This document shows positions 5,907 through 23,777 of a DNA stretch of 64,000 nt, in pieces. The stretch's first letter is position 1. Each line of letters begins with the position of its first letter. Source of the stretch: Nitrospira sp. ND1 (GTDB lineage: Bacteria > Nitrospirota > Nitrospiria > Nitrospirales > Nitrospiraceae); NCBI RefSeq assembly GCF_900170025.1, contig NZ_FWEX01000006.1:3029839-3093838 (forward strand), in the 5' to 3' direction. Made by a program: the position numbers and the translations under genes. Below the pieces are notes generated by a model, which did no database searches, had not been told where the DNA came from, and was given only the letters and a program-made list of their open reading frames with translations.

Positions 5907-6851
5907 ATGGGAACAACCGGGCTCATTTACGATCCACGTTACCTGGAACACGACATGGGCGCCGGACATCCGGAGTCGCCCAACCGGCTGCGCGCGATTA
6001 TGCAGCGGCTCGAACAGAGCGGTACGCTCGCCACACTCACCAGGATCGACCCGCGAACAGCCGAAGACGAGTGGGTCACGCTGGTGCATCGGTCGGAGTA
6101 TGTCGCGATGCTCAATCGACAGGCGCCGACGCATGGCCGGGTCTCGCTCGACGCCGATACCTCCATGTCACCCGGATCGCTCGGCGCCGCCTATCTCGCG
6201 GCCGGTGGAACCCTGGCCGGGGTGGATGCGATTATGGCCGGCCGGGTCCAGCATGCTTTCTGTGCGGTCCGTCCGCCGGGGCACCATGCGGAAGCCGATC
6301 GGGCGATGGGTTTCTGCCTATTCAACAATGTGGCGATCGCGGCGCGGTATGCGCAGAAACGGTATGGCGTGCAACGGGTCCTGATCGTCGATTGGGACGT
6401 TCACCACGGGAACGGGACGCAGCACAGCTTCGAGTCAGATGCGTCGGTGCTGTTTTTCAGTACGCACCAGTATCCGCACTATCCCGGGACCGGGCGCGCC
6501 AGCGAGTGCGGCCGCGGAGCCGGGGAAGGGCTCACGATCAATGTGCCGATGGAGGCGGGGGAAGGCGACGACGAATACCGGGCGGTGTTTCAGAAGGTTC
6601 TGGTGCCGGCTGCCGATGCCTTCAAGCCGGAGTTTGTCATCATCTCCGCCGGTTTTGACGCCCACCGGGACGATCCGCTCGCGAGCATGGGGTTGACTGA
6701 AGAAGGGTATGCCGATCTGACGAATATTGTAGCCGGAATTGCCAGGCAACATTGCCAAGGACGCCTGCTGTCGGCACTCGAAGGCGGGTACAACCTCACG
6801 GCGTTGGCCGCGTCGGTCGAGCGACATATTCAGGCGCTGGTGGCGGCATGA
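5907..6851 (+). CDS. Histone deacetylase family (AcuC/HDAC-like) hydrolase
   Basis: Zinc-dependent amidohydrolase of the arginase/deacetylase fold that removes acetyl groups from lysine or polyamines. Visible active-site motifs are RPPGHHAE (His126, His127), DWDVHHGNGTQ (zinc ligands Asp164 and His166) and SAGFDAHRDDP (Asp251). Length is 314 residues, normal for bacterial class II-like members. The start at 5907 (MGTTGLIYD) is preferred, since the longer frame runs through repeat sequence. The stop overlaps the ATG of the next gene by ATGA, so the two are probably co-translated. The substrate is not deducible. Confidence 0.87.
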   Translation: MGTTGLIYDPRYLEHDMGAGHPESPNRLRAIMQRLEQSGTLATLTRIDPRTAEDEWVTLVHRSEYVAMLNRQAPTHGRVSLDADTSMSPGSLGAAYLAAGGTLAGVDAIMAGRVQHAFCAVRPPGHHAEADRAMGFCLFNNVAIAARYAQKRYGVQRVLIVDWDVHHGNGTQHSFESDASVLFFSTHQYPHYPGTGRASECGRGAGEGLTINVPMEAGEGDDEYRAVFQKVLVPAADAFKPEFVIISAGFDAHRDDPLASMGLTEEGYADLTNIVAGIARQHCQGRLLSALEGGYNLTALAASVERHIQALVAA

Positions 6852-8122
6852 ACCTGTGGGTGAAAATCCTGCTGGGTGTCGCAGTCCTCGCCGGGGCGAT
6901 TTACCTCTATTACACCGAGGTGAAACCGGTCGTCATTTTCGGACTCCGGTCGGATTATGCCCATGCCATTCCGTTTCAAAAGGTGCCGGAGGGCCTGACC
7001 AGCCTGAAGGCCGAGTCCTGCGGTCAATGCCACCGGGAAATTTATGACGAGTGGAAAACCAGCATCCACGCTCATGCCTACGAAGACCCGTTCTTTCAAG
7101 CCTACTGGAAAAAAGACAAAAACATCTGGGTCTGTTTGAATTGCCACACGCCGTTGGAGAACCAACAGCCGACGCTGGTGAAAGACATTCCCCGGGGGCG
7201 GGTCGAGAAAGCGACGCAGGAACCGAATCCTCATTTTGATGCCGACCTGCGGAAGGAATCGATCACCTGTGCCGCCTGCCATGTGCGCGACGGAGTGATC
7301 CTCGGACCCTTCGACGATTCCGCTGCGCCGCATCCCACAAAATTCGACCCCAGTTTCCGCAACGCGCAGTTCTGTTCGCGTTGCCATAACGTGGTCTCCG
7401 GTCCGGCGCAGTTTTACAACGTCGGCCCCTGCGGGACCTACGCCGAATATGAAGGTAAGTATTTCATGCAGGAGCGGGGCTTCATCTGCCAAAGTTGCCA
7501 TATGCCGGAGGTCGACCGGCCGGTGGCCGAAAACGGGCCGATCAGGCGCGGGCGACGACATCTCTGGCGAGGGGGGCACGATCCCGACATGGTGAAGCGG
7601 GCCGTGGCGATTCAGGTGAAGGCCGATCCTCCGGCTCCCAAACCGGGTGAGCAGGTCACTGTGACCCTCTCCCTAATGAACGCCGGGGCGGGGCACAAAA
7701 TTCCGACCGGCGATCCCGACCGGCACTTTACGGTGGAATTCACGGTTCAAGACCCAAACCGGCAGGTGCTGGCCGAGAAATCCCACACGATGGGCCGCTG
7801 GATTATGTGGCAACCGGCCATCGTAGAGTTGTACGATAACCGCTTGCTCCCCTTGGCCAGCCGGGACTATCAATTTGCCTACCGGATGCCGGAGGCGTCC
7901 AAGGGGTTGACGTTGAAGACCCGGGTTCGGTACCACATCCTGACCGACGGGCAGCATGAGATGTTGAAGACCAAGTACGGCCTGATGGCGGACGATCCCT
8001 ACGCCTTCACGGTCTATGAGCGGGAAGTGCCGCTGAATGAAACGCTGGCGGCCGCGTTGGTCGATCCCTTGCCGGAGCCGCCGCCGATGGCCTGTGCGAG
8101 TCCGACCGCGTCCAAGGGGTAA
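6848..8122 (+). CDS. Membrane-anchored five-haem c-type cytochrome
   Basis: 424 residues. An N-terminal hydrophobic anchor (about 4-22) places the rest in the periplasm. Five CXXCH haem sites begin at residues 58, 96, 141, 176 and 214. The first, CGQCHREIYDEW, resembles the cytochrome c554-type domain. The C-terminal half (from about 255) has no haem motif and looks like a beta-sandwich, including GAGHKIPTGDPDRHF, where the His residues could act as axial ligands. Probably an electron-transfer protein. Translation is coupled to the upstream deacetylase (ATGA). Its redox partners are unknown. Confidence 0.82.
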   Translation: MNLWVKILLGVAVLAGAIYLYYTEVKPVVIFGLRSDYAHAIPFQKVPEGLTSLKAESCGQCHREIYDEWKTSIHAHAYEDPFFQAYWKKDKNIWVCLNCHTPLENQQPTLVKDIPRGRVEKATQEPNPHFDADLRKESITCAACHVRDGVILGPFDDSAAPHPTKFDPSFRNAQFCSRCHNVVSGPAQFYNVGPCGTYAEYEGKYFMQERGFICQSCHMPEVDRPVAENGPIRRGRRHLWRGGHDPDMVKRAVAIQVKADPPAPKPGEQVTVTLSLMNAGAGHKIPTGDPDRHFTVEFTVQDPNRQVLAEKSHTMGRWIMWQPAIVELYDNRLLPLASRDYQFAYRMPEASKGLTLKTRVRYHILTDGQHEMLKTKYGLMADDPYAFTVYEREVPLNETLAAALVDPLPEPPPMACASPTASKG

Positions 8123-8150
8123 GTCATCACCCACCGAGATCGAGGAACCC

Positions 8151-9044
8151 ATGCAACATCCATTACTCATCGATTGTGAAACGCTTCAGAAACGCTTGGG
8201 GCAACCGGGCCTTGTCGTGCTCGATGTGCGAGGAAGAGCCGCCTATGAGTTCGGAGGCCATATCCCCGGCGCCGTGCATTCCACGTGGCATGAATACAGC
8301 GACCCCGATGCCGTCGCTAAAGGTTTGCTGGATCCGGACCTGAAACGCATCGAGAAGTGCGTGCAGGCGCTCGGCATCAATCAGGAGAGCGAAGTGGTGA
8401 TCTATTCGAACCCCTTCGATAATTGGGGCGACGAAGGACGCATGTTCTGGATGTTGGAATACTTAGGCCACAAAAACCTCAAAGTGCTGGACGGCGGGTG
8501 GGTCAAGTGGATCCATGAACGCCGGCCGTTCGAGCATGGCGCGGTTCGCTGCGCGCCCGGCAACTTCGTCGTGTCCCCTGTAGAGTCGGCGATCATCATG
8601 AAGAACGAGTTGAAGGGGATTGCGCGGAAGCCGAACCCGACGACCACGATCGTGGATGCGCGGAGCCTGGAAGAGTATCTGGGGAAAGAAATCTCCGGCA
8701 TTCCGAGGCCCGGCCATATTCCCGGTGCCGTCCATGTGGCGTGGAGCGGATTTTTGAATGCCGATGCGACGGTCAAGGATATGGCCGCCATCAACGCGCA
8801 GTTGGATCTCAAGGGGCTGAACCCGGCGCACGAAACGATCTGCTACTGCACCGGCGGCGTGCGCTCGGCGTGGCTCTATTTTATATTGCGACTGGTCGGT
8901 TATCAGCGGTTGCGTAATTATCCGGGCTCCTGGTGGGAGTGGAGTCGCGATTTCGCCTGCCCGGTGGAGAAGGATCTGCTCGCGTTGCAGAAACTTCTCG
9001 GCCTGTCGGAGTCGCAGGTTCCGACCGGCATGCGTCCGTCTTGA
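8151..9044 (+). CDS. Tandem-rhodanese sulfurtransferase
   Basis: Two rhodanese domains, as in thiosulfate/3-mercaptopyruvate sulfurtransferases. The N-terminal domain (about 5-125) lacks an active-site Cys. The C-terminal domain (about 155-290) keeps the loop CTGGVRSA with catalytic Cys233. It transfers sulfane sulfur to an acceptor, with donor specificity unclear. The ATG at 8151 follows CGAGGAACCC; upstream in-frame codons overlap the cytochrome gene. 297 residues, full length. It sits 28 bases after the multihaem cytochrome and may share its transcript. Confidence 0.87.
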   Translation: MQHPLLIDCETLQKRLGQPGLVVLDVRGRAAYEFGGHIPGAVHSTWHEYSDPDAVAKGLLDPDLKRIEKCVQALGINQESEVVIYSNPFDNWGDEGRMFWMLEYLGHKNLKVLDGGWVKWIHERRPFEHGAVRCAPGNFVVSPVESAIIMKNELKGIARKPNPTTTIVDARSLEEYLGKEISGIPRPGHIPGAVHVAWSGFLNADATVKDMAAINAQLDLKGLNPAHETICYCTGGVRSAWLYFILRLVGYQRLRNYPGSWWEWSRDFACPVEKDLLALQKLLGLSESQVPTGMRPS

Positions 9045-9069
9045 CAGGATGCAGGCCCCTCTTTATGCT
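9041..9069 (+). promoter_or_regulatory. Strong sigma70-type promoter of the SmbP-like gene
   Basis: TTGACA at 9041-9046, a 17-base spacer and TATGCT at 9064-9069. The -35 box overlaps the stop codon of the rhodanese gene. A 5' leader of about 50 bases precedes the ATG at 9125. Confidence 0.7.
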
Positions 9070-9124
9070 GAAATACAGTATCGTTGGAATCATGCGGTGC
9101 ACATACTTACAGAGGAGGCTGTTC

Positions 9125-9481
9125 ATGCAGACTGCGAAATGGCGGGGAGTCGTGGTAGCCGGTGTGATGATGGCGCTCGTCGGGGCGCCGATGGTTGCCG
9201 GGGTGGCTTTCGCGGCAGGAAATAAGCATCAGGCCGAAGCGGTGGAGCATGCCAAGGAAGCCGTGGCGCATGGGAAGCAGGGCCATGCGGACGCCTTGGT
9301 GAAGCATGCCGAAGCCGCGCTCAAGCATGCCGAGGGTGCGGTGGCTGAAACCAAGAATCCGCATGTCACTGAAGCCATCAAGGGGCTCAAGGACGGGATC
9401 GAGCACGGCAAGGCCGGCCACGCCGATGTGGCGACCAAAGCCGTTGAGAACGCTCTTCCCCATCTGTCGGAAGGTATGTAA
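9125..9481 (+). CDS. smbP: Small metal-binding protein (SmbP-like), periplasmic
   Basis: 118 residues with a clear signal peptide (hydrophobic 8-29, cleavage likely around AFA/AGN). The mature part is helical with His spaced about every seven residues (HAKEAVAHGKQGHADALVKHAE and so on), the pattern of SmbP from nitrifiers, which binds Cu and other divalent metals. It is probably a metal buffer or chaperone for copper-rich respiratory enzymes. A very good Shine-Dalgarno (GAGGAGGCT), a consensus-like promoter and a strong terminator make it an independent, probably highly expressed unit. Confidence 0.85.
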   Translation: MQTAKWRGVVVAGVMMALVGAPMVAGVAFAAGNKHQAEAVEHAKEAVAHGKQGHADALVKHAEAALKHAEGAVAETKNPHVTEAIKGLKDGIEHGKAGHADVATKAVENALPHLSEGM

Positions 9482-9516
9482 TCGGTTCTTGCGCGTCGAC
9501 GGCGTGTAAGATGAAA

Positions 9517-9545
9517 CGGGCAGGGCCGTCCCTGCCCGTTTTTCT
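9517..9545 (+). terminator. Rho-independent terminator after smbP
   Basis: Stem CGGGCAGG / CCTGCCCG (9517-9538) with a 6-base loop, followed by a T-rich tract (GTTTTTCTTT begins here). Confidence 0.85.
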
Positions 9546-9565
9546 TTGAGTAGAAAGGCGACATC

Positions 9566-10357
9566 ATGCGGGTCGGGTATCTCCAATTTGATCCGGTCTT
9601 CGGCGAGGTCGCGCACAATCTCGACCTCATCACGGCTCGACTTGAAGAGGCGGAGGCCGACCTTCTTGTGTTGCCTGAATTGTGCGCGTCGGGTTATCAG
9701 TTTGTGTCGCAGGAAGAGGTTTTTCGGCTGGCGGAGCCGGTGCCGGACGGGGCGACCACGAAACGGCTTGTGGAAATTGCTGCACGCCGTGGGATGACCA
9801 TCGTAGCCGGGTTGCCGGAGCGGGACGGACGGCACTGTTTTAATTCGGCGGTCGTGGTCGGACCCAAGGGATTCATCGGCTGCTATCGGAAAACGCATCT
9901 CTTTTTCGAGGAGACGCTCTGGTTTACTCCGGGCGACAGCGGGTTTCACGTGTGGGATATCGGCATGGCCAAAGTCGGCGTGATGATCTGCTTCGACTGG
10001 TATTATCCGGAATCCGCCCGCACGCTGGCGTTGCAGGGCGCGGATATCATCGCGCATCCGTCGAACCTGGTGCTGCCACATTGTCCTGATTCCATGGTGA
10101 CCCGCTGTTTGGAAAATCGAGTCTTCAGCGTGACGGCGAATCGGATCGGTAGCGAAGCGCGCGGAGGAAAGGACCGGCTGACGTTTATCGGCATGAGCGA
10201 AGTCGTCAGTCCACGCGGCCGGATCCTGCATCGCGCACCGCGTGAAACCGAGGACCTGACGATCGTCGAGATCGACCCCGCCGAGGCCAGGATCAAAGCA
10301 CTCAATGACTACAACGATCTCCTGCGCGACCGGCGCCCAGCCTTGTATGGCGACTAA
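9566..10357 (+). CDS. Carbon-nitrogen hydrolase (nitrilase superfamily)
   Basis: 263 residues with the Glu-Lys-Cys triad of the superfamily: Glu38 in LPELCASGY, Lys109 in CYRKTHLF and Cys142 in MICFDWYYPE. It hydrolyses an amide or nitrile. The closest look is to the omega-amidase/N-carbamoylputrescine amidohydrolase type, but the substrate cannot be fixed from sequence. Cytoplasmic, no signal peptide. The ATG follows AGAAAGGCGACATC. Confidence 0.87.
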   Translation: MRVGYLQFDPVFGEVAHNLDLITARLEEAEADLLVLPELCASGYQFVSQEEVFRLAEPVPDGATTKRLVEIAARRGMTIVAGLPERDGRHCFNSAVVVGPKGFIGCYRKTHLFFEETLWFTPGDSGFHVWDIGMAKVGVMICFDWYYPESARTLALQGADIIAHPSNLVLPHCPDSMVTRCLENRVFSVTANRIGSEARGGKDRLTFIGMSEVVSPRGRILHRAPRETEDLTIVEIDPAEARIKALNDYNDLLRDRRPALYGD

Positions 10358-14242: not shown

Positions 14243-15052
14243 ATGTTCGATCGTGACGCGTATCTCGCGCGCATCAAGTATGAAGGGCCGTTGATCCCGT
14301 CCCTGGAAACTCTGCAGGGTTTGCACCGGGCCCACGTGATGACCGTGCCGTTTGAAAATCTGGATATTCATCTTGGACGGTCGATTTCGCTGGCCCCGGC
14401 CGATCTGTTTCGCAAGATCGTCGTCGAGCGACGGGGCGGCTACTGTTTCGAACTGAACGGACTGTTTGCGCTGCTGCTGGAGGCGTTAGGCATTGCCGTC
14501 ACGAGGCTGGCTGCCCGGGTCTGTTCCGGGGCGGAGGGTGTGAGACCGCGAAGTCACCAGCTGTTGATGGTCAAGATGGGTACGAGCGTATGGATCGTGG
14601 ACGTTGGGTTCGGAGGTCAAGGATTACTTGAACCTTTGACGCTGGCCGTTGGGGAAGAAAGGCAGCAGGGGCGTGAGTGCTTCAGGCTGGTGACCGGCGA
14701 ACGAGGCGAGTATCTGCTGCAAGGCGAACGTGATGGCGCCTGGGCGGATCTCTATTCCTTCGGGCTCGATCCCTGCCTGCCGGTGGATTATCTGTTCGCG
14801 AACTACTATCACTCGCACTCGCCGGACTCCATTTTCACGCAGCAGCGCATCTGCACGATGCCGACCCCGGAGGGGAGGAATACTTTGTCAGGGATGGAGC
14901 TGAAGATTCGAACCGGCGAGAAGACACGCCAGATCCGCTCGCGTGATATGCGCGAGTACCGATTGCTGCTCAACGATTACTTTAACTTAGTGGTCAAGGG
15001 GGATTTCAAGGAACTGCCGGGCATTGTTGGTGAGGACAACGAGGAGGCATAG
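14243..15052 (+). CDS. Arylamine N-acetyltransferase
   Basis: Acetyl-CoA-dependent transferase with the Cys-His-Asp triad: Cys68 in RRGGYCFELN, His105 in RSHQLLMV and Asp120 in WIVDVGFGG. 269 residues, normal length, cytoplasmic. The ATG follows GAGGAGGGTGC. The WYL-domain regulator starts 4 bases after its stop and probably shares its transcript. Confidence 0.92.
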   Translation: MFDRDAYLARIKYEGPLIPSLETLQGLHRAHVMTVPFENLDIHLGRSISLAPADLFRKIVVERRGGYCFELNGLFALLLEALGIAVTRLAARVCSGAEGVRPRSHQLLMVKMGTSVWIVDVGFGGQGLLEPLTLAVGEERQQGRECFRLVTGERGEYLLQGERDGAWADLYSFGLDPCLPVDYLFANYYHSHSPDSIFTQQRICTMPTPEGRNTLSGMELKIRTGEKTRQIRSRDMREYRLLLNDYFNLVVKGDFKELPGIVGEDNEEA

Positions 15053-15055
15053 TCG

Positions 15056-16063
15056 ATGGCCGACCGCATAAAGCCGAAAATGGGGAGGCGACCTAAGGCC
15101 TACAGTCAGGCGGACCGCTTTGCGCGAATGCTTCGAGTGTTGTCCACCCGTGCAGTGTCGGTCAGGGACCTTGCTCAGGAACTTGGGATATCGGTGCGGC
15201 AGGTCTATCGCGACCTCGACGGCATGCAGGAGGCGGGGCACCCGTTGGAACAGTCGGACGGCGATGGCGAAAAGACCTGGCACCTGCCTCTGGGATACAA
15301 GGGCCTGCCGCAGATTGCCGTGACGCCCTATGAGCTCATGGCGCTGCATGGCGCGAAAAGTCATATAGGCTATCTTAAGGGTACGCCCCTGGTCGAGAAC
15401 CTGGAGGCATTGATTGGGAAGGTGGAGAGCGCCTTGCCTCACAAGGTGACGAACCATCTTGCTCGCATCAACGATGTGTTTCTTCCGCGCCAGGCACCGG
15501 TTCGTGACTATTCCCGCCATGGGGAGGTCTTGGCAAAACTGGAGAAAGCGTTGCTGCTCCAGCGGACGGTGACTCTGCACCACATCAGGCCGGGCTATGA
15601 AGAACCGGCCGAACATTCCGTGGATCCCTACCGGTTACTATTCCACCAATTCGGTCTCTATGTGCTGGGCTTCTCACATCGTGCGCAGGCTGTTCGGCTG
15701 TTTGCTGTCGAGCGCATTGTGGCCCTCGATGTCGCTGACCAGTCCTTCGATATCCCGAGTGATTTGAAGCTCGACATGAACTATGAGCGAGTCTTTGGCC
15801 TGATTGAAGAACCGGCTCAGCTCGTTCGAATTCGGTTCACCGCCGAGGTGTCCTATTTGATCCGTGAGCGCCGCTGGCATCCCAGTCAGCAGAATGAAGC
15901 TCAGCAGGACGGCTCCATTATCGTTACCATGACCATCGGTGGCATGGAGGAACTGGCTGCCTGGGTGCTCTCTTGGGGGCAGCAGGCCAAGGTGTTGGAA
16001 CCTCAAGTGCTCGTTGAGACCGTGAAGTGGCAGCTCAGTTGTGCTCTAAGCCGCTATGGCTAG
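15056..16063 (+). CDS. YafY-type HTH and WYL-domain transcriptional regulator
   Basis: 335 residues. The N-terminal winged HTH (about 20-75) includes VRDLAQELGISVRQVYRDLDGM. A WYL domain (about 150-245) carries VDPYRLLFHQFGLYVLGFSH, and a WCX-like C-terminal extension follows. WYL domains bind nucleic-acid-like or nucleotide ligands and often control defence or DNA-repair loci. The start has GAGGAGGCAT just upstream. A 21-bp perfect palindrome lies in the gap after this gene, and a related site lies 2.5 kb downstream; this regulator is the obvious candidate to bind them. Confidence 0.87.
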   Translation: MADRIKPKMGRRPKAYSQADRFARMLRVLSTRAVSVRDLAQELGISVRQVYRDLDGMQEAGHPLEQSDGDGEKTWHLPLGYKGLPQIAVTPYELMALHGAKSHIGYLKGTPLVENLEALIGKVESALPHKVTNHLARINDVFLPRQAPVRDYSRHGEVLAKLEKALLLQRTVTLHHIRPGYEEPAEHSVDPYRLLFHQFGLYVLGFSHRAQAVRLFAVERIVALDVADQSFDIPSDLKLDMNYERVFGLIEEPAQLVRIRFTAEVSYLIRERRWHPSQQNEAQQDGSIIVTMTIGGMEELAAWVLSWGQQAKVLEPQVLVETVKWQLSCALSRYG

Positions 16064-16186
16064 GTTTCCTGTACGAATTCATCGCCGGATGCCGATATGG
16101 GCACCGCAACCTGCCCGCGAACCTCCAAAGAGTTGCCACTCGACCCAGTCCGGTCCCAGTAGCGGTCTGCTCCTGCCTCACCCGCT

Positions 16187-16207
16187 GCGTGACATTTTCT
16201 GTCACGC
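16187..16207. promoter_or_regulatory. Palindromic operator, site 1
   Basis: A perfect inverted repeat with 8-bp arms, GCGTGACA and TGTCACGC, around TTTTC. A TAATGT hexamer at 16216-16221 could be the -10 box of the downstream operon. The second site at 18646-18666 keeps the right arm, the spacer and the distance to a TAnnnT hexamer. That makes regulation by one protein likely. Confidence 0.65.
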
Positions 16208-16250
16208 CTGCAAGGTAATGTCCTCTCGTCGACCTTCCGGGAGGATTGTC

Positions 16251-17507
16251 ATGCTGACGAGGCGGAATCTGTTCAAGTTCGCTGCGACATTCGGGTTGGG
16301 TGTCTTCGCGCCACGGTTTGAGCAGCTGGCCAGCGGTGCGGCCGTGGAGTCGCGGCAGGGGCAAGACCCATCTCCGGAGCGTGTCCTCTCACAGCACGAA
16401 CAATCGTTCCTGGATCTGGAATGGTTCGAAAATCTCAAAGATGACCTGGATTGTGTGGAGGTCGTCGCGTATGTGGCCCCGACGTTCAACATGCCTGCTT
16501 CGGCTGAAATCAATTTGATCCGGGGAAGTTCCCATTGTCTCTTTTGTGGCGAGGCCGGTTTTCGCGTGGGAGCGGAATCCTTCACGTGCAAGTGGTGCAA
16601 TGCGGAGGGATCCGCGATTGAGTTGTATGCCAAAGCTGAAGGACTGCCGCATGAGGGAGCGGCGGCGCGCCTTGAAGCACTGTTGAACGACGGGTTGCTC
16701 AAGGGCCGTCGTGGGGAAAACGAATATGCGCACAGAATGCTGGCGGAAGCGGCGCGCTTCTACCATGCCTCGCTGTGCGAAAGTCCGGAAGGGGCAGTGG
16801 CCAGGGAGTGCCTGGCCGAACAAGGGATCGCGCCGTCCACGATCGAAGGGTTTCGGCTTGGCTATGCGCCGGCTGAGCCGGACGACCTCTTAGGCCGCCA
16901 CTTGGTGGCGGTAGGGTATGCGATTCCCAGGCTCTTGCAAACGGTTCGCGTGAATGAAGAGGGTGAGGAAAATCTGGTCGATCGATATGGCGGCGGCCAC
17001 CTGCTCATTCCAATTGGTGATCAGACAGGGCGTAGCTGGGGATTCATGAAACACAGGCTCACCTCGCGGCAGGACTCTCTGCAGGCAGGATGGACGCAGG
17101 ACACCTTGGCCGTTTCGGAGCGGCGGCTGCGCAGACTCATCTTTCTCCATCCCGCCTGGCCTCAGGATTTCAACCGGCACCAGAGAGTGTTGATTACGGA
17201 GACACCTTGGGAGGTCGTCGCCTTGCACAATGCCGGTATTGAGAATGCGGTCTATCTGTTCGACTGCGTGACCGATCCAATTCGTCTTCGGGTGCTGCTG
17301 TCTCTCGGCCGAGACTTGATTTGTTGCGTCGACCCCAAAGGGCGAAGGTCGGTGAAGGCCTTGCGCGTCATTGAAGTACTTGAACGTGAGACGCGGCACA
17401 TTCGCGTGATGTCCGTGCCGTACAAGGGTGGCCTGATGGAACTGCTGCAAGCGAGCGGCCCCCAGGCGGTACGCGAGGCAATGAGTCAGGCTATCCCGTT
17501 TCTTTAG
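16251..17507 (+). CDS. Degenerate DnaG-primase-like protein with Tat-like N-terminus
   Basis: 418 residues. Residues 1-30 look like a twin-arginine signal (TRRNLFKFAATFGLG). A CHC2-type zinc ribbon follows (Cys96, Cys99, Cys113, Cys116, then GSAIELYAKAEGL). Next is the DnaG N-terminal core (170-270: ARFYHASLCESPEG, then YGGGHLLIPIGDQTGRSWGF). Last is a Toprim-like domain (312-418: VLITETPWEVVALHNAGIENAV). The Toprim Glu317 is kept, but the usual Asp-x-Asp is CVDPKG, so metal-dependent primase activity is doubtful. The ATG at 16251 has GGGAGG before it; the longer frame would erase the palindromic operator region. It heads a putative operon with the next two genes. Role unknown. Confidence 0.7.
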   Translation: MLTRRNLFKFAATFGLGVFAPRFEQLASGAAVESRQGQDPSPERVLSQHEQSFLDLEWFENLKDDLDCVEVVAYVAPTFNMPASAEINLIRGSSHCLFCGEAGFRVGAESFTCKWCNAEGSAIELYAKAEGLPHEGAAARLEALLNDGLLKGRRGENEYAHRMLAEAARFYHASLCESPEGAVARECLAEQGIAPSTIEGFRLGYAPAEPDDLLGRHLVAVGYAIPRLLQTVRVNEEGEENLVDRYGGGHLLIPIGDQTGRSWGFMKHRLTSRQDSLQAGWTQDTLAVSERRLRRLIFLHPAWPQDFNRHQRVLITETPWEVVALHNAGIENAVYLFDCVTDPIRLRVLLSLGRDLICCVDPKGRRSVKALRVIEVLERETRHIRVMSVPYKGGLMELLQASGPQAVREAMSQAIPFL

Positions 17508-17543
17508 TGGCTGGAGGCGTGAGGTCTAGGAGGGAATGTTGTC

Positions 17544-17783
17544 ATGGAATGGCTGGTGCTGCTCATGTTGCAGGTGTTGGTTCCGGCAGACGCGCTGATG
17601 CAGGTGACTCTGAACAAATCCCTGGCGCAGGTCATTCAGGAGCAGATCAGTTGCCGCAAGGAGTTCGATGAGGCGAGGCCGGAGTTCGAGCGGGTGACTC
17701 GGATCGACGACCCCATGGCGCGTTCAAATGCCATCGACAAATTGCGCACGACCGTGCTACTACGCTGCGGGGTGAGGCCGTGA
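17544..17783 (+). CDS. Small hypothetical protein, 79 residues
   Basis: It starts with a short hydrophobic stretch (EWLVLLMLQVLVP) that could be a signal or membrane segment. A helical, charged part with two Cys (ISCRKEF and LLRCGV) follows. No family recognised. The ATG follows AGGAGG. It lies 36 bases after the primase-like gene and 31 before the glycosylase-fold gene, so co-transcription is likely. Confidence 0.6.
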   Translation: MEWLVLLMLQVLVPADALMQVTLNKSLAQVIQEQISCRKEFDEARPEFERVTRIDDPMARSNAIDKLRTTVLLRCGVRP

Positions 17784-17814
17784 GTGTAAAACTCTATTGT
17801 TGGAGGAGTTGTTC

Positions 17815-18606
17815 ATGACTGAAAGTGAGATGAATAGGTTATTGCTGGACATTAGGAAAGAGTTAGCTGACTACTTACATAGATCAGGATCGATTTTCTA
17901 CACCGGTCGTCAGGCAATGAGAAAGGGTGATTTTTATTTGATGGGGCTCAACCCTGGTGGTGACCCAGGTATTATGAAAGAAGAGACAATTGAAAAGTCT
18001 TTGACTGACTGGCGGAGGAGAGAGCCCGAGGAGTGGTCAGAGTATAAGGATGTGGACTGGGGGAAAAAGAAGTCAGATCCCAAGTATGAGAACCCTGGAA
18101 ACTCTAGGCATCAAAAAAGGGTGAGGAGCTTTTGCACGAATTGCTTGGGCGAGCCTGATGTGAGGAATGTGTTTTCTGCCAATGCCATTTTTGAGAGGAC
18201 TAGAAAGGGAGATCACTTGCCAAAGGGTACCAGCCTTGAGCATGTCTGCTGGCAAGTCCATCAGCTCTTGTTTTTGAAAGTTCAGCCGAAATACATCATT
18301 TGCCTTGGGCACGGACTGGATAGCTCGTTCGATCGATTGAAGAGTGAGAAATGTCTAGCCGTCGGTGATTTTTGCGAGGAGGCATTTAAGATGCCGAATG
18401 GAACCAGAAATTTTTACATCCGCTGGTTTGAGGCGGCGAAAATTCAGAATCCATTGCCGGGTTTGGAACGCTTGGTTCGCATCATAGGTGTTCCTCATCC
18501 GAGTTGGTTTGATCTCGGCGCCGACTGGTTCAGCCAGGCGTGCAGAACGCTTCCCCTGTTCGATTCGAACCCACTCAGATGTAAAAATGCGAATAGATAC
18601 GGCTGA
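17815..18606 (+). CDS. Uracil-DNA glycosylase superfamily-fold protein
   Basis: 263 residues. Motif 1 is LMGLNPGGDP (44-51), the core strand is KYIICLGHG, and the C-terminal motif is VPHPSWF (226-232), together the signature of the UDG fold. Members excise uracil or other damaged bases, and some outlying branches have other or unknown activity. It has no iron-sulfur cluster Cys set. The codon use is much more AT-rich than neighbouring genes, which points to recent acquisition. The start has GGAGGAG upstream. Context: third gene behind the primase-like protein and a WYL regulator. Confidence 0.72.
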   Translation: MTESEMNRLLLDIRKELADYLHRSGSIFYTGRQAMRKGDFYLMGLNPGGDPGIMKEETIEKSLTDWRRREPEEWSEYKDVDWGKKKSDPKYENPGNSRHQKRVRSFCTNCLGEPDVRNVFSANAIFERTRKGDHLPKGTSLEHVCWQVHQLLFLKVQPKYIICLGHGLDSSFDRLKSEKCLAVGDFCEEAFKMPNGTRNFYIRWFEAAKIQNPLPGLERLVRIIGVPHPSWFDLGADWFSQACRTLPLFDSNPLRCKNANRYG

Positions 18607-18645
18607 CTTTCTAAGGGTTTCAGCCACACGTATGTCCCTACCCTG

Positions 18646-18666
18646 ATGTGACCTTTTCTGTCACGC
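18646..18666. promoter_or_regulatory. Palindromic operator, site 2
   Basis: ATGTGACC-TTTTC-TGTCACGC. The right arm and spacer are identical to site 1, and the left arm keeps GTGAC. TAGACT at 18675-18680 lies at the same distance as TAATGT does from site 1. It is 143 bases upstream of the small gene at 18809. Confidence 0.6.
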
Positions 18667-18808
18667 TTCTGTCGTAGACTTCCCTGATTCATTCTTAATG
18701 CTTATCCGCTACCGGAAGTCGGGAACGGCCGCGATATGAGCTCGGAAACCTCGCGTTCGGGACGGCCAATCGACATGAGTGCACAACGCTATGATAGGAG
18801 GTTCTTTG

Positions 18809-19039
18809 ATGGACAGATATATTTACACCAACTGGCGCGGCCAGCAATTTGTCATTGATGATAGCTTCATCGACGATATGAAGAAGCGAATTTCCATGGA
18901 CGATGGGTCTGATTCGAGCGAGCTGGCCGATCTCACACCGGAACTATTGATGGAAATGCTTCCAACGATGGAGGGCATTGAGCGATGCCGGCAATTGGAG
19001 GAACTGTGGGCCGCCTCGGTCGACCCCCACGGTTGTTGA
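18809..19039 (+). CDS. Small acidic hypothetical protein, 76 residues
   Basis: It begins MDRYIYTNWRGQQFVIDDSF and has an acidic helical second half. No family recognised. The ATG follows ATAGGAGG. The operator-like site at 18646 suggests it belongs to the same regulon as the primase-like operon. Eleven bases after the stop is a 22-bp repeat that marks the start of an accessory patch. Confidence 0.6.
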   Translation: MDRYIYTNWRGQQFVIDDSFIDDMKKRISMDDGSDSSELADLTPELLMEMLPTMEGIERCRQLEELWAASVDPHGC

Positions 19040-19044
19040 TGGGG

Positions 19045-19200
19045 CTACCGTGCCAGGAATGATTTTCTCACATGCCAATGGCATCCTGCTGCGTTTGATT
19101 CTCGTAGAGAATGTTCACGCTTGTCGGCATACTCTTCGCTGATGCGCGCCAGGCATCGCTCCATACTTGCCGTCTTGTTCAGCTCCACATCATAAGCCAT
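19045..19200 (-). pseudogene. Truncated HepT-like (DUF86) toxin remnant
   Basis: Reading from an ATG at 19200, the first 25 codons give YDVELNKTASMERCLARISEEY, the N-terminus typical of HepT RNase toxins of MntA/HepT pairs. Homology then stops and the frame ends at 19045 inside the 22-bp repeat, so more than half of the protein is missing. Coding-like sequence directly upstream on the same strand (19201-19320, ending RELIYGL) may be the C-terminus of the partner nucleotidyltransferase. I cannot confirm that part. Confidence 0.45.
19050..19071 (+). repeat. 22-bp direct repeat, left copy
   Basis: GTGCCAGGAATGATTTTCTC followed by AC. It is identical to 20172-20193 except for one base (C for T at position 4). 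It marks the point where the HepT-like gene is cut off. Confidence 0.7.
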
Positions 19201-19313
19201 AGATCAGCTCGCGCTCTTTGCTGTCCCTGAGGATGTCCCGACGTTCCTCCTTCACCCGTGCACAGTTCGAGTAGGCGTACATTTCCATCCACGGCATGCC
19301 GCAGAAGAATTTG

Positions 19314-19325
19314 GTAACATGTTAC
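19314..19325. promoter_or_regulatory. Palindromic operator of mazEF
   Basis: GTAACATGTTAC is a perfect 12-bp palindrome. A half-similar GTAACGTGTGAT follows at 19337. Their position 50 and 28 bases before the antitoxin start fits autorepression by the MazE-MazF complex. Confidence 0.5.
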
Positions 19326-19375
19326 GAAGGCATGTGGTAACGTGTGATCAGAAGACAGCAGAGGGAGAAAATCCT

Positions 19376-19597
19376 ATGCCCTCCGAGACACATCTGAGCT
19401 CGAAAGAGAAGCAGAGCCGATACCGGAGCCGGTTGCGCCAAAAGGGTTTGCGGCCGGTGCAGATCTGGGTTCCGGACACCCGTGCTGCCGGGTTTGCAAC
19501 TGAATGTCGCAGGCAGGCGCGCCTTGTGGCACGGTCCGCGCAGGAAAGGCCTGTTCTTGACTTCATCTCAGAGATCGCTGATTGGGACAATGGATGA
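19376..19597 (+). CDS. MazE-type antitoxin (DUF3018)
   Basis: 73 residues. It begins with a basic region (SSKEKQSRYRSRLRQKGLRPVQIWVPDTR) typical of the DUF3018 antitoxins, with a helical C-terminus that should wrap the toxin. The ATG at 19376 follows GAGGGAGAAAATCCT. The stop overlaps the toxin start by ATGA. It likely neutralises MazF and represses the operon. Confidence 0.82.
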   Translation: MPSETHLSSKEKQSRYRSRLRQKGLRPVQIWVPDTRAAGFATECRRQARLVARSAQERPVLDFISEIADWDNG

Positions 19598-19920
19598 AGC
19601 GCGGCGATCTTGTTGCGGTCGCTGCCAAGGGCCACTATAGCGGAAAACCGCGGCCTGCCCTTGTCCTGCAATCCAATCTCTTCTCTGCGCTTGGGAGCGT
19701 GACGATCTGCCTCCTGACGACTGAATTTCTTGATGCGCCGCTGTTTCGCCTTGCCGTTGAGCCTTCGCCGAAAAATGGCCTGAAGCAGCCCTCGCAGATT
19801 ATGATCGATAAGATCGTGACCGTTCCTCATGACGCAATTGGTGCCCGGATCGGCTCGCTCGATCATGAAGCGATGGCCCGCGTCGACCGCTCCCTGGCCG
19901 TATTTCTCGGGATCGTCTAA
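19594..19920 (+). CDS. MazF/PemK-family endoribonuclease toxin
   Basis: 108 residues with the PemK-like barrel: MKRGDLVAVAA, then GKPRPALVLQS, the catalytic-type strand VTICLLTTE, and QIMIDKIVTVPHDAIG. It cuts mRNA at short sequence motifs. Full length, and coupled to the antitoxin by an ATGA overlap. It is the only apparently intact toxin-antitoxin pair in the window. Confidence 0.88.
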   Translation: MKRGDLVAVAAKGHYSGKPRPALVLQSNLFSALGSVTICLLTTEFLDAPLFRLAVEPSPKNGLKQPSQIMIDKIVTVPHDAIGARIGSLDHEAMARVDRSLAVFLGIV

Positions 19921-20071
19921 CCTTCGCTTCCCAACTGGTGGTTGCCGGTCTTGAAGGCTTCGCTGCTTGGTGTGCTTTCAGGCAGGACGATTCCACCGCC
20001 TGCGGACTCTTCACACTGTCTGGGGTCAGGGAACTTCTTGAAGATCAAGTAGGCTGACTGACTGAATCACG

Positions 20072-20170
20072 CTACCAGGTTCGACGTTGCACCATGACAT
20101 TTAGAATCGTGAGCAGTTTCCGCGTGCACGCCGTCAGCGCCAACTTCTTGCCTTCTCCGCCTGACGAAAT
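20072..20170 (-). pseudogene. IS110-family transposase C-terminal remnant
   Basis: On the minus strand about 32 codons read GKKLALTACTRKLLTILNV, then MVQRRTW, then stop. This is the very conserved C-terminal end of IS110 transposases. Upstream it is cut exactly at the 22-bp direct repeat (20172-20193). The rest of 19921-20258 has no gene. Confidence 0.7.
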
Positions 20171-20171
20171 G

Positions 20172-20193
20172 GTGTCAGGAATGATTTTCTCAC
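20172..20193 (+). repeat. 22-bp direct repeat, right copy
   Basis: GTGTCAGGAATGATTTTCTC followed by AC. Partner of 19050-19071. TGTCAGGAATGAT resembles the start of IS21-type ends (the local IS21 begins TGTCAGTAATCAT), so it may be a solo end of a lost element. Confidence 0.65.
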
Positions 20194-20258
20194 CCAGGCG
20201 GTGGGGTCATGCCGATCAGGCGATCATCCTGCCCTGAGCCTGTGCGGCGACAGTTCTG

Positions 20259-20699
20259 CTAGTTGCGCCCGCCTCTTTCCAGCCGGACTGATTGCGCCGA
20301 CCAGTCGAGCCCTCCCATCCGCACATTGCGGCCATCGACCGCTTCGATGCGGATCGTGATGGCTGGTTGCGTGACCAGGCGGTCGGCCAACGAGCCGAGG
20401 GGGCGCGTCACATCGATCAGCAGGGTCGGCAGGCGTCGCGGAGCCGATCCCACCGACCGGTCCCCCACGATGCCCGCCGAGCCCAACATGACCGGATCCG
20501 CTCCTTCGATGATTGCAGCCGCTCGCAGCTTGAACGGTTGTCCCCCTGCGACCGTCAAGCCCTCCAGCACCAATCGGACGTGGGAGGCCTGTTGCCACCC
20601 GGTCGGTAAGTCGACGGAGAACCGGTGCGGTCCTTCCTCCGCATGAACCGCCAGTGCAGCCAGGATCATGACGCTCGCGAGCCAGGAGATAAGTCCCAT
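20259..20699 (-). CDS. Secreted hypothetical protein next to tyrosinase
   Basis: 146 residues with a signal peptide (LISWLASVMILAALAVHA/EE). The predicted beta-rich mature part could be an accessory or copper-loading partner of the tyrosinase. No family recognised. Its ATG lies two bases after the tyrosinase stop codon, so the two are very probably one transcriptional unit. The low-information sequence in 20194-20258 holds nothing I can name. Confidence 0.65.
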   Translation of the reverse strand: MGLISWLASVMILAALAVHAEEGPHRFSVDLPTGWQQASHVRLVLEGLTVAGGQPFKLRAAAIIEGADPVMLGSAGIVGDRSVGSAPRRLPTLLIDVTRPLGSLADRLVTQPAITIRIEAVDGRNVRMGGLDWSAQSVRLERGGRN

Positions 20700-20701
20700 G
20701 G

Positions 20702-22138
20702 TTACCGTTCCTCGCGTTCCACTTCTGCGACGGACAGCAAGACGTCCTTCGCCCGTACCGGGATGACTTTTCGGGCCTCAGGTTTAACTCCGCGCTCGAC
20801 CAGGGCCAAGCGGACCGGACCGAGGGTACCGCTCAGGGCTTCGAGTTTGGCGGTGGAGAGCCTAACGGCGATGTTTCGTGCGTTCTTCGACACATGCCGA
20901 CGCTCCCGATCGTTCAACACCACCGGCACGGTACCGAGATAGCCCTTGCTACCGGGGCCTTCATCGGCTTTCGCCGCTTCGGGAGTCGCATAGAGTCGAT
21001 ACACAGCGCTCTTATCCGTGGGAACGGCGAGCTCGTTCAGGTGCAGTCTCGCGCGGCCTCCCTGTTCAACGACTTTCATCATCTTAGCACGCGTCTGTCC
21101 GGCAAACTTCAGGGTCTGGCTGACCCGCCAATCGGTCTTGATGGGGAACCAATCGAGGAGGCAGGGGAGCTGCTCCAAGAACTTCGACGGCCCATAGGTA
21201 TAACGCAATTGAGTGTCGTGGTTCAGGACCTGTGAGGCCTTGATCGACCGCCACACTTTATTTTCATCGTAGAAATTCCATGTCAGGTTCAAGAAGGCCG
21301 TTGCCGTCGGGTTCGTGTGGATGGACGAGGCCTTGTTCCAGTCCGACCACATCTTGTCCACGTTGGCATGATGCGCGTAGAAGACGGGATCTTTCCCGGC
21401 TGAATCGAAGAAGCCCATGTCGCCGCCGACGTCGACGTGGACCGCACCGTGGGGTGTCCCCTCAGGAATGCCGCTGCCGCTCGCCGTACCGCCGAACTCT
21501 GTGAAGGTGTCCGCCGTGAGGGCAGCCTCCATGACGTCTTCCCCGACATCTTCTTCCGGGATTTCCTCCGTCGGGTCCATGCTGCGGGTCCCGTTCCACA
21601 GTGGGTTGCTGTTGTCGTTCGGATCGCTGTAGGCGCCGGGCAGCTTGCGGTGGCTCGGTGTGTCCCAGTCCCAGTAGGGAAGGCGGAAATTCATGTCGCC
21701 GATCAGCTTCCCGAGGATCCGTTCGTGAAAGTAGAGATAGGCGCGGTGCCAGGCGAAGAATTGCCAGGTGAAATGGACCTGAGTGCCGGCGCCGCAGTAC
21801 CAGCAATGGACGTTGGCCTGCCGCAGGAATCCGCGCGGGTCGTTCGGGGCGCTGGTATCGAGCGCGCGCATGGCCTTATAGGCATCCTTGAGTTGTGTGA
21901 TCTCCGCCGCACTCAGGGTGCTGGCGGGGCGGCGCGGGAGGATCATTCGACAGTCCTTGCGCCATGGTTTCGGTGTCCCGGGATTGCCTGGAGGTTCGCA
22001 CACGGCCAGCACCGATTCCGGCAACGCCAGGCCGCCGAACAGGCCCGCGCCTAGCGCCCCGACACCCAATCCCATCCGCTGAAGAAATGACCTCCGCGAC
22101 GGCATGGTCGCCCACATGCGGTCGTCCAGATTCGACAT
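20702..22138 (-). CDS. Tat-exported tyrosinase/polyphenol oxidase
   Basis: 478 residues. A twin-arginine signal (SRRSFLQRMGLGVGALGAGLFGGLA) leads to a type-3 copper domain. CuA His lie in ANVHCWYC, HFTWQ and FAWHRAYLYFHER. CuB His lie in GTPHGAVHVDVGG and DPVFYAHHANVDKMW. The HCWYC Cys could form the Cys-His thioether of polyphenol oxidases. The C-terminal domain (about 330-478) resembles the plant-type PPO caps. It oxidises phenols to quinones in the periplasm. The start has GGAGGT at ideal distance. Unusual in an autotroph. Confidence 0.9.
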   Translation of the reverse strand: MSNLDDRMWATMPSRRSFLQRMGLGVGALGAGLFGGLALPESVLAVCEPPGNPGTPKPWRKDCRMILPRRPASTLSAAEITQLKDAYKAMRALDTSAPNDPRGFLRQANVHCWYCGAGTQVHFTWQFFAWHRAYLYFHERILGKLIGDMNFRLPYWDWDTPSHRKLPGAYSDPNDNSNPLWNGTRSMDPTEEIPEEDVGEDVMEAALTADTFTEFGGTASGSGIPEGTPHGAVHVDVGGDMGFFDSAGKDPVFYAHHANVDKMWSDWNKASSIHTNPTATAFLNLTWNFYDENKVWRSIKASQVLNHDTQLRYTYGPSKFLEQLPCLLDWFPIKTDWRVSQTLKFAGQTRAKMMKVVEQGGRARLHLNELAVPTDKSAVYRLYATPEAAKADEGPGSKGYLGTVPVVLNDRERRHVSKNARNIAVRLSTAKLEALSGTLGPVRLALVERGVKPEARKVIPVRAKDVLLSVAEVEREER

Positions 22139-22861
22139 GACCTACCTCCTTGTGTGTGGCTTCGGCTAGGAAAGCTCCGCGCCGTCCCGAGCGCGACGCC
22201 ATGGTTGGATGGGGCAACGAGTGATCAATATCCATGCCATGAGCGGATGCGGCCCCCGGTTGCGAGAGATGCGCGGATTCTCGGCCTGGCGTCGAAGGAT
22301 TCCCTGTCAATCCCGTAGGTGTTCGTATCCAATGGGATACGGTGCCGCCCGAATAGATACAGCTGCGGTGGAATTTTTCGCCCGATGCGATTTTTGCAAA
22401 CTCTCATTCTTCTAGCGATCTCGGTAAAGGAAAAACAGCGCTGTTTTCTCTCTCCTAGCTGTGGCATCCGGGGTTAATGGATCTGGTCCATCCAGAAATT
22501 ATCGTTGCGACCTCAGCTGGCGGACCTACCGTCTGCGCTACAACTTTTTGGCAATGGACTGGAAGGTTCTGAAACTTCAGGTGAGCCAAGTCCGACTTAT
22601 GGCAGATTCGACCTCGAAGGAAAGAGGGGTACGCTGAATCTCCATTCTGGATCGCCGGATGTGTCGATTACCGGGATTCCACATCTGAATAGGTGAAATC
22701 CGCTGGCAAAGGAATCATTACCTGAGATTGGGGAGCCGACGTATACAGGACCCGGAATGAAATGTCGAAATGCAGCGGCTCGCCCGAGCTACTCTACCGC
22801 GCCGCAACTTCACCGGAAAGACTACGATCTGAGATAGCATCTTGCCTGGAGTGAAGACGGC
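22139..22861. other. Intergenic region without recognisable gene
   Basis: About 720 bases between the divergent end of the tyrosinase unit and the Phd/ParE module. Short open frames here lack ribosome sites and family similarity. Base composition is lower in GC than the surroundings, especially 22330-22480. A small inverted repeat ATGGA-TCTGG-TCCAT lies near 22478-22492. No RNA gene is recognised. Confidence 0.5.
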
Positions 22862-23077
22862 CTAGCGATAGACATCCTTGCGATGCTCAATTGAGAGGAT
22901 ATCCAACCACTCGACGCCGGTATTCCGGTAGAGGATCCGATAGGGCCAGACTCGGTAGGACCAGACTGTATCTTTCTGAAACTTTTCTTTGAGCGGTTTG
23001 CCGTCGAGGGGATGTTCGGCGAGGTGGCAGATGGCGTCTTTGATTGTGTCCCGAGTTCCAGCGTCGAAGGAGGCCAC
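22862..23077 (-). CDS. RelE/ParE-family toxin with frameshifted N-terminus
   Basis: The frame encodes ASFDAGTRDTIKDAICHLAEHP, PYRILYR and SIEHRKDVYR, the body of a ParE/RelE toxin. It lacks a proper first strand. Its only upstream start is a GTG inside the conserved helix. The expected N-terminus (RQARLTLKPS) is encoded in another frame from a GTG at 23115 that overlaps the antitoxin stop. The two parts are offset near 23087 by a net loss of bases (1 or 7). The toxin is therefore probably inactive, or made only by frameshifting. Confidence 0.6.
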   Translation of the reverse strand: MASFDAGTRDTIKDAICHLAEHPLDGKPLKEKFQKDTVWSYRVWPYRILYRNTGVEWLDILSIEHRKDVYR

Positions 23078-23111
23078 ATCCTTGATGGCTTGAGGGTGAG
23101 TCTCGCCTGTC

Positions 23112-23378
23112 TCACGGCTTTTCGTCGAACACGTCCTTGAACGACCGAAGCTTCCCTGCCTTCGCTTCTTTCAGCCCTTGCTCAAGAGCTTTGACCGCTT
23201 GGGGATTTGAGAGCAGCTCCAATGTTTCAACCCAGGTTTCAAATTCTTCCGCCCCCATGACCACCGCTTTAGGAGTTCCATTTTTTGTCACGATTACCCG
23301 CTCGGACAAACGATCGGCATTGTCCACCAAGGAGGAGAATCTGGACCGGGCCTGCTTGAGCGACATGGTTTTTGTCAT
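23112..23378 (-). CDS. Phd/YefM-type antitoxin
   Basis: 88 residues. The N-terminal DNA-binding fold is SLKQARSRFSSLVDNADRLSERVIVTKNGTPKAVVMGAEEFE with motifs broken up by typical Phd spacing, followed by an acidic/basic C-terminal toxin-binding tail ending KDVFDEKP. The ATG at 23378 has GAGG 7 bases upstream; an ATG six bases earlier is also possible. It is the intact partner of the damaged toxin downstream. Confidence 0.83.
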   Translation of the reverse strand: MTKTMSLKQARSRFSSLVDNADRLSERVIVTKNGTPKAVVMGAEEFETWVETLELLSNPQAVKALEQGLKEAKAGKLRSFKDVFDEKP

Positions 23379-23400
23379 CGTCATGCCTCGTTGATGTGGC

Positions 23401-23416
23401 GTGTACACAATTGTGT
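23401..23416. promoter_or_regulatory. Palindromic operator of the Phd/ParE module
   Basis: Two overlapping perfect palindromes, GTGTACAC (23401-23408) and ACACAATTGTGT (23405-23416), lie just upstream of the antitoxin start. This is the expected place for autorepression by a Phd-type antitoxin. Confidence 0.5.
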
Positions 23417-23438
23417 CTCGTCCGACAAGGTATCAGCC

Positions 23439-23777
23439 CTACCGCGCCAGCAGCTTTACCAGCCCCACGCAGCACATGTAGAGGACCATGGAGCCGGCCA
23501 TGGAGAGCCAGAAGCCGACGCGCTCCACGCCGTAGATCATGCAGCCGACGTAGACGAGCCAGGGCGGCACAAACCAGAGCAGGTTCTTGGCGTAGGTCAC
23601 GAGGTGTTCGCTGCCGCCGTTGAGATAGATGAGGATGAACGTCGCGCCGGTCATCGCCGGAAAGGTACTGGCGAAGGCGGCGAGAAACGACCGGCCTTGC
23701 GATCCCAGATAGGTTGAGATGCTGACAATGGTGCCGCCCAACAAGAAGTACAATCCGTACTTCGCCCACTCGCCCAT
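23439..23777 (-). CDS. Small integral membrane protein (DUF3147/GlpM-like)
   Basis: 112 residues with about four transmembrane helices (YGLYFLLGGTIVSISTYLG; FLAAFASTFPAMTGATFILIYL in the second; LLWFVPPWLVYVGCMIYG; LSMAGSMVLYMCCVGLV). The arrangement resembles GlpM/DUF3147 proteins, but similarity is only general. The start has GGAGGT. The RNase Z-like gene ends 12 bases upstream, so they form a pair. Confidence 0.6.
   Translation of the reverse strand: MGEWAKYGLYFLLGGTIVSISTYLGSQGRSFLAAFASTFPAMTGATFILIYLNGGSEHLVTYAKNLLWFVPPWLVYVGCMIYGVERVGFWLSMAGSMVLYMCCVGLVKLLAR

Follow-up and report, generated by a model that had tools for sequence, protein, structure and literature searches.

A DnaG-fold pseudo-primase of Nitrospirales with a predicted Tat signal, encoded in a putatively WYL-controlled module of a variable hotspot

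Several described systems resemble parts of the locus analyzed here. Bacterial DnaG, as represented by the Escherichia coli (1dd9, 3b39) and Aquifex (2au3) structures, arranges a zinc ribbon, a DNAG_N core, and a Toprim domain in that order. Primases that leave the cytoplasm are known from conjugative plasmids, where Sog and TraC are carried to the recipient by type IV secretion, remain active, and have no Tat signal. DnaG homologs can also work outside priming, as in archaea, where DnaG is an RNA-binding subunit of the exosome and is without an export signal (PMC4227792). On the regulatory side, WYL regulators of phage-defense islands are known, and those of the WYL/BrxR/CapW type are HTH-WYL proteins encoded beside variable defense genes, with an inverted-repeat operator (PMC9122601). 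PafBC and related WYL activators have an HTH-WYL-WCX architecture and a link to nucleic acids through ssDNA sensing (PMC11804915).

The window, a 64,000-nucleotide stretch of the Nitrospira sp. ND1 genome, encodes a 418-residue protein on the plus strand (16251–17507), here called Tat-DnaG, which has the domain order and fold of DnaG and for which we predict export. Unlike DnaG, it carries a Tat signal and a Cys4 zinc site, its catalytic acids and the residues corresponding to K229, Y230, and K241 are lost or replaced, it is without the helicase-binding C-terminal domain, and replication genes are not nearby. Upstream lies the gene for a WYL regulator (15056–16063, plus strand; Pfam HTH_11, WYL, and WCX) with the same architecture as PafBC, but this regulator is a single gene with a local regulon, and ssDNA sensing is a feature of PafBC. 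Compared with the WYL/BrxR/CapW systems, operator-like sites, recognized by sequence alone, here also precede the pseudo-primase and small proteins, and BREX or CBASS genes are absent from the module. The reading we lean toward is that of an exported pseudo-primase within a WYL-controlled regulon of a defense hotspot, which suggests that a replication enzyme has been reused as an envelope protein, probably a defensive one. We know of no report of a DnaG-fold protein bearing a conserved export signal, and our search of the open-access literature found neither an exported or inactive DnaG paralog nor a conserved export signal on a DnaG fold. If export is true, the protein is a case of a core replication enzyme taken into service at the cell envelope.

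The original prediction described a primase-like protein in which the zinc ribbon, DnaG core, and Toprim strands could be recognized, and profile and structural comparisons agree with that description. Pfam DNAG_N (PF08275) matched the protein with E = 1.6e-7 (31.9 bits against a cut-off of 26), and the NCBIfam dnaG model TIGR01391 matched with E = 9e-20 at 70.9 bits, below its cut-off of 283.6. The zinc-ribbon domain (16416–16640, plus strand; ligands C96, C99, C113, and C116 at 16536–16598) gave a structural Z of 7.6 against 1d0q, which by itself could reflect a common arrangement, and a sequence profile match to 1d0q (E = 7e-11) supports the identity of the domain. An AlphaFold model made with 23 family members as the input alignment reached a mean pLDDT of 79.6 and a pTM of 0.75; pLDDT fell below 50 at residues 1–44, as expected of a signal and linker. 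The top Foldseek matches to this model were DnaG structures (E down to 1e-14), and DnaG cores superimposed on it with Z of 21–23 over 242–254 residues, rmsd of 2.7–3.5, and 17%–25% identity. The protein ends at residue 418, straight after the Toprim fold (17175–17504, plus strand), and a separate full-length DnaG is encoded elsewhere in the same genome. A Shine-Dalgarno-like GGGAGG stands 6 bp 5′ of the ATG; the open frame extends upstream to 16056, and relatives align from M1.

Whole-genome searches found the family in about 19 of 235 genomes, all from Nitrospirales, including NZ_CP011801, which we take to be the cultured Nitrospira moscoviensis. Members came from Nitrospirales only among 395 genomes of the phylum, and a scan of the GTDB contig set with two specific peptide patterns, which distant relatives elsewhere could escape, returned Nitrospirota only; searches beyond the order thus used narrow patterns or covered one phylum. 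Gene calls in the relatives are longest-ORF calls. The proteins fall into 2 groups, group A, the type found in the window and located downstream of the WYL gene, and group B, encoded by a second gene a few kilobases downstream. Phage and plasmid origins were considered as well: a scan of viral contigs gave no relatives, and each of the listed plasmid matches was either a normal dnaG gene or a DnaG-like stretch without annotation. Broken A and B copies occur at loci L037 (6686–7930) and L087 (6601–7345), so the family is also undergoing loss. At L084 (7867–8802), a 311-residue relative is missing most of the Toprim domain, and a small lipoprotein-like gene adjoins it in place of the gene for a 79-residue protein described below.

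The module runs in the order WYL regulator, Tat-DnaG A, 79-residue protein, variable cargo, small acidic protein, Tat-DnaG B. Its WYL gene lies 5′ of gene A on the same strand in 14 gene-A loci, a co-occurrence that is partly circular because the WYL profile was trained on module loci. Distance matrices of the WYL and Tat-DnaG proteins are correlated (Mantel r = 0.77, p = 2e-4), with shared ancestry at best partly handled. The 79-residue protein (17544–17783, plus strand) has a hydrophobic segment at its N-terminus and 2 invariant cysteines, Cys37 and Cys75, and its gene follows Tat-DnaG A in most loci. Of the 235 genomes, 17 encode this protein, and Tat-DnaG or remnants of it occur in 16 of these (hypergeometric probability 7e-21, ignoring shared ancestry). 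The small acidic protein (18779–19039, plus strand; 86 residues from a GTG or 76 from the ATG at 18809) is encoded before Tat-DnaG B in relatives; tblastn detected no remnant of Tat-DnaG B in the window. At L133 (5520–12538), the 79-residue and small acidic proteins flank an AddB/AddA-like nuclease-helicase pair as cargo, and Tat-DnaG and the WYL gene are absent from the stretch compared.

Members of this module share a palindrome. In the window, the operator-like sequence GCGTGACATTTTCTGTCACGC (16187–16207) places its 17-bp core 46 bp before the Tat-DnaG ATG, and a second site, GTGACCTTTTCTGTCAC (18648–18664), lies 5′ of the small acidic protein gene. In the 355.7 kb of the 20 module loci, the pattern GTGAC-N7-GTCAC has 32 copies where approximately 0.4 would be expected; 31 of these copies are at most 400 bp upstream of a module gene, typically 43–49 bp before gene A and 50–69 bp before gene B. 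Five hotspot loci without the module contain none. A tighter 17-mer, GTGACMTTYTCTGTCAC, matches 20 times across the 235 genomes; 19 of these matches fall in module loci, and the genome of the window has exactly 2, both inside the window, where allowing up to 2 mismatches still yields 2 (0.04 expected). A match to a looser pattern elsewhere in this genome (C6:568107) falls within an apparent rpoA gene and was taken as chance. The L040 palindrome has one mismatch. The site is retained where gene A has been lost, at L134 and, with one mismatch, at L038 and L039; at L134 it also stands 33 bp 5′ of an IetA-like cargo gene. As a counterexample to the pairing of WYL gene and Tat-DnaG, genome G098 carries a WYL gene together with the palindrome and no Tat-DnaG. 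At L135 and L136 a related WYL gene, likewise without Tat-DnaG, has the palindrome beside it. The L136 copy (within 6476–9744) lies between the WYL gene and the gene for a 698-residue, probably secreted protein, which suggests that the palindrome follows this WYL clade outside the module too. As binder of the palindrome we propose the WYL protein, the obvious candidate, with support from L135 and L136, and the module is very probably co-regulated through the palindrome. The palindrome before gene A and its paralog is newly reported here, and the WYL, operator, and hotspot context was not part of the original prediction. Such a private operator would give a direct handle on a small regulon joining Tat-DnaG to swappable restriction and defense genes in nitrite oxidizers, pointing to the genes that should be moved jointly and the promoter to watch.

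The module occupies a hypervariable hotspot (15053–23438) that extends from the arylamine N-acetyltransferase gene (14243–15052) to the gene for a 112-residue protein (23439–23777). Its constant flanks are a UvrA-like ABC protein and the N-acetyltransferase on one side and the 112-residue protein and a 339-residue hydrolase-like protein on the other. At an empty site in L137 (4499–4577), the N-acetyltransferase and 112-residue genes are about 80 bp apart, and in other genomes the hotspot holds toxin-antitoxin or unrelated genes. Module cargo varies by genome and is often restriction- or defense-like: GmrSD-type restriction genes at L134 and L036 (GmrSD/HEC-05, E = 2e-49), a PDC-M15A/B pair at L079 and L032 by profile (2e-37, 2e-43) and at L034 and L035 by similarity, Mrr-type nucleases at L033 and L083 (Mrr/PDC-S02, E = 6e-23), and PD-(D/E)XK and DUF2779 proteins at L040. 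MazEF and nucleotidyltransferase/HEPN-like pairs also occur beside the module. Specific matches to defense families were obtained for only about half of the loci. In a PADLOC control, 2 of 10 window genes matched through generic folds, so IetA-like and GajB-like matches count as weak evidence and only restriction-type and PDC matches were treated as specific.

The cargo gene of the window (17815–18606, plus strand) encodes approximately 263 residues, and its relatives occupy the corresponding slot at L085 and L086. Family searches gave no match for its product, and the predicted model is poor (pLDDT 45); GLNPG and HPS motifs, noted by eye, recall the uracil-DNA-glycosylase superfamily as a possible relationship. 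A MazE-like/MazF-like pair in the same hotspot (19319–19920) is 84%–100% identical to copies in other hotspots and on that account appears mobile between genomes.

In the mechanism we propose, a DnaG copy comprising zinc ribbon, RNA-polymerase core, and Toprim domain, without the helicase-binding domain, would have lost its priming chemistry and gained a Tat signal, and the resulting pseudo-primase would be folded, loaded with zinc, and then moved into the inner membrane or through it. The WYL regulator would bind GTGAC-N7-GTCAC at Tat-DnaG A, at the small-protein and Tat-DnaG B genes, and at some cargo genes, and on sensing a nucleic-acid or stress signal would switch the bound genes together. 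At the envelope, the exported protein would bind or sense without catalysis, as part of a defense against incoming DNA. Whether the module forms part of a defense function is close to an even call that falls just short of one. A fuller version, a new anti-phage or anti-mobile-element module in which the WYL protein and its private operator co-induce swappable intracellular effectors and a Tat-exported pseudo-primase that senses periplasmic DNA or phage parts, is tentative and somewhat unlikely as stated.

The pseudo-primase could also be exported for handling DNA at the envelope outside defense, for instance in natural transformation, in scavenging, or in dealing with extracellular DNA, with the hotspot being incidental. 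A Tat signal together with a nucleic-acid-enzyme fold fits such a role, and natural competence has a periplasmic DNA-binding step, but the cargo genes share the operator-like sites, restriction-like cargo is swapped between loci, and competence genes were not seen adjoining Tat-DnaG. The acidity of the protein counts against this role and against the defense reading alike: the mature proteins have pI values of 4.9–6.7 and have lost basic residues through which DnaG contacts nucleic acid. Strong DNA binding is therefore doubtful, and the ligand may be DNA, nucleotides, or a protein, for example the 79-residue one. We consider a role in DNA handling apart from defense unlikely, and continue with the reading of an exported pseudo-primase in a WYL-controlled defense regulon.

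The prediction of export depends on the N-terminus, MLTRRNLFKFAATFGLGVFAP, which the original prediction had read as a Tat signature. Residues 1–22 (16251–16316, plus strand) form the predicted signal, with the twin arginines at residues 4–5 (16260–16265), and residues 23–55 (16317–16415, plus strand) a weakly constrained linker, of low pLDDT as far as residue 44. In each of the 23 relatives that align from the start residue, [STN]RR is followed by a hydrophobic stretch, and R4 and R5 are invariant at identities to the window protein of 23%–81%. The 12 invariant columns of this alignment (n = 23) are M1, R4, R5, G15, D67, E70, the 4 zinc cysteines, G120, and L150; catalytic residues are not among them, so the twin arginines have outlasted the catalytic residues. 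The motif variants of the family (LTRRNLFK, FTRRTLFK, LNRRNFLK, LNRRAFIQ, and VSRRTFFK) are all forms permitted by Tat. Within group A, dN/dS is 0.17 for the signal, 0.65 for the linker, and 0.16–0.22 for the remainder. The pattern [STN]RRx[FLI][FLI][KRQ] was present in the first 25 residues of 25 of the 707 ORFs of at least 100 residues in the loci compared, and all 25, many of them mutually orthologous, were family members or a Tat-type tyrosinase; the window protein falls outside this set because its longest open frame begins further upstream. The genome encodes 2 TatC genes. Curated profiles respond weakly to these N-termini, with TIGR01409 (NCBIfam) matching 4 of 23 members (best E = 0.022) and PF10518 (Pfam) 1 of 23 (E = 7.5e-4), the window protein in neither case, and the argument for Tat therefore rests on conservation and not on profile score.

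These modest profile matches, and an AxA cleavage site that is not clear in several members, the window protein included, would fit an N-terminus that is an inner-membrane anchor, uncleaved or untranslocated, with the DnaG domain working on the cytoplasmic side. Invariant arginines before a moderately hydrophobic stretch (KD 1.15–1.9 in the family, 1.7 in the Tat tyrosinase) are however the requirements of Tat, conservation of the pair is not expected of a simple anchor, and several group B members have AxA-like ends (QAWA, GQA). We regard a plain anchor as decidedly unlikely and Tat targeting of Tat-DnaG as likely, with good confidence.

The catalytic residues were followed by aligning the family to E. 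coli DnaG (E265, D269, D309, D311, D345, D347, K229, Y230, and K241). The zinc site is all-cysteine (C-C-C-C) in 23 of 23 members, in contrast to the CHC2 site of DnaG, with H43 replaced by Cys. K229, Y230, and D347 are replaced wherever a member covers these positions, and K241 has become R, H, or N. The window clade, L040, and the majority of group B retain E265, and the D269 position is E in most of group A and D in group B, L083, and L040. D309 persists in 8 group A members only, being lost from group B and the distant members; D311 has changed to K or R in the window clade and to other residues elsewhere, with Asp in one member; and D345 is Asp in L082 and L040 only. The altered Toprim metal site of the original prediction thus holds across the family, no relative having the full set E265/D269/D309/D311/D345/D347, and the CVDPKG reported at the Asp-x-Asp motif corresponds to D361-P-K363 of the Toprim fold (D-P-K at 17331–17339). 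Relatives with a plain N-terminus or with all the catalytic acids, either of which the original prediction had named as counting against it, did not turn up. The graded loss of these residues, alongside a persisting fold and selection, is typical of a pseudo-enzyme and not of a gene in decay, and Tat-DnaG is very probably not a primase.

If the protein were still a working primase or nucleotidyl transferase whose metal site is rearranged, this would account for the E317, E321, and D361 still present in the window clade and for the purifying selection on the Toprim domain (dN/dS 0.22). Such an enzyme would have to work with K or R at D311, with D345/D347 and K229/Y230 gone, and, in group B and distant members, without D309, and we know of no NTP pool in the periplasm; this makes activity very improbable. 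The least credible reading, a chance hydrophobic extension on a cytoplasmic primase-like protein, which the original prediction had raised as its alternative, has in its favor nothing beyond the frame being open further upstream, and is contradicted by the start, arginine pair, and hydrophobic stretch conserved in the 23 relatives and by the low dN/dS of the signal.

A second candidate Tat substrate is encoded in the hotspot of the window, a tyrosinase (20702–22138, minus strand) with the classic Tat signal PSRRSFLQRMGLGVGALGAG, accompanied by a small secreted protein. These 2 genes are present or absent in the same hotspot at L033, L039, L087, and L138.
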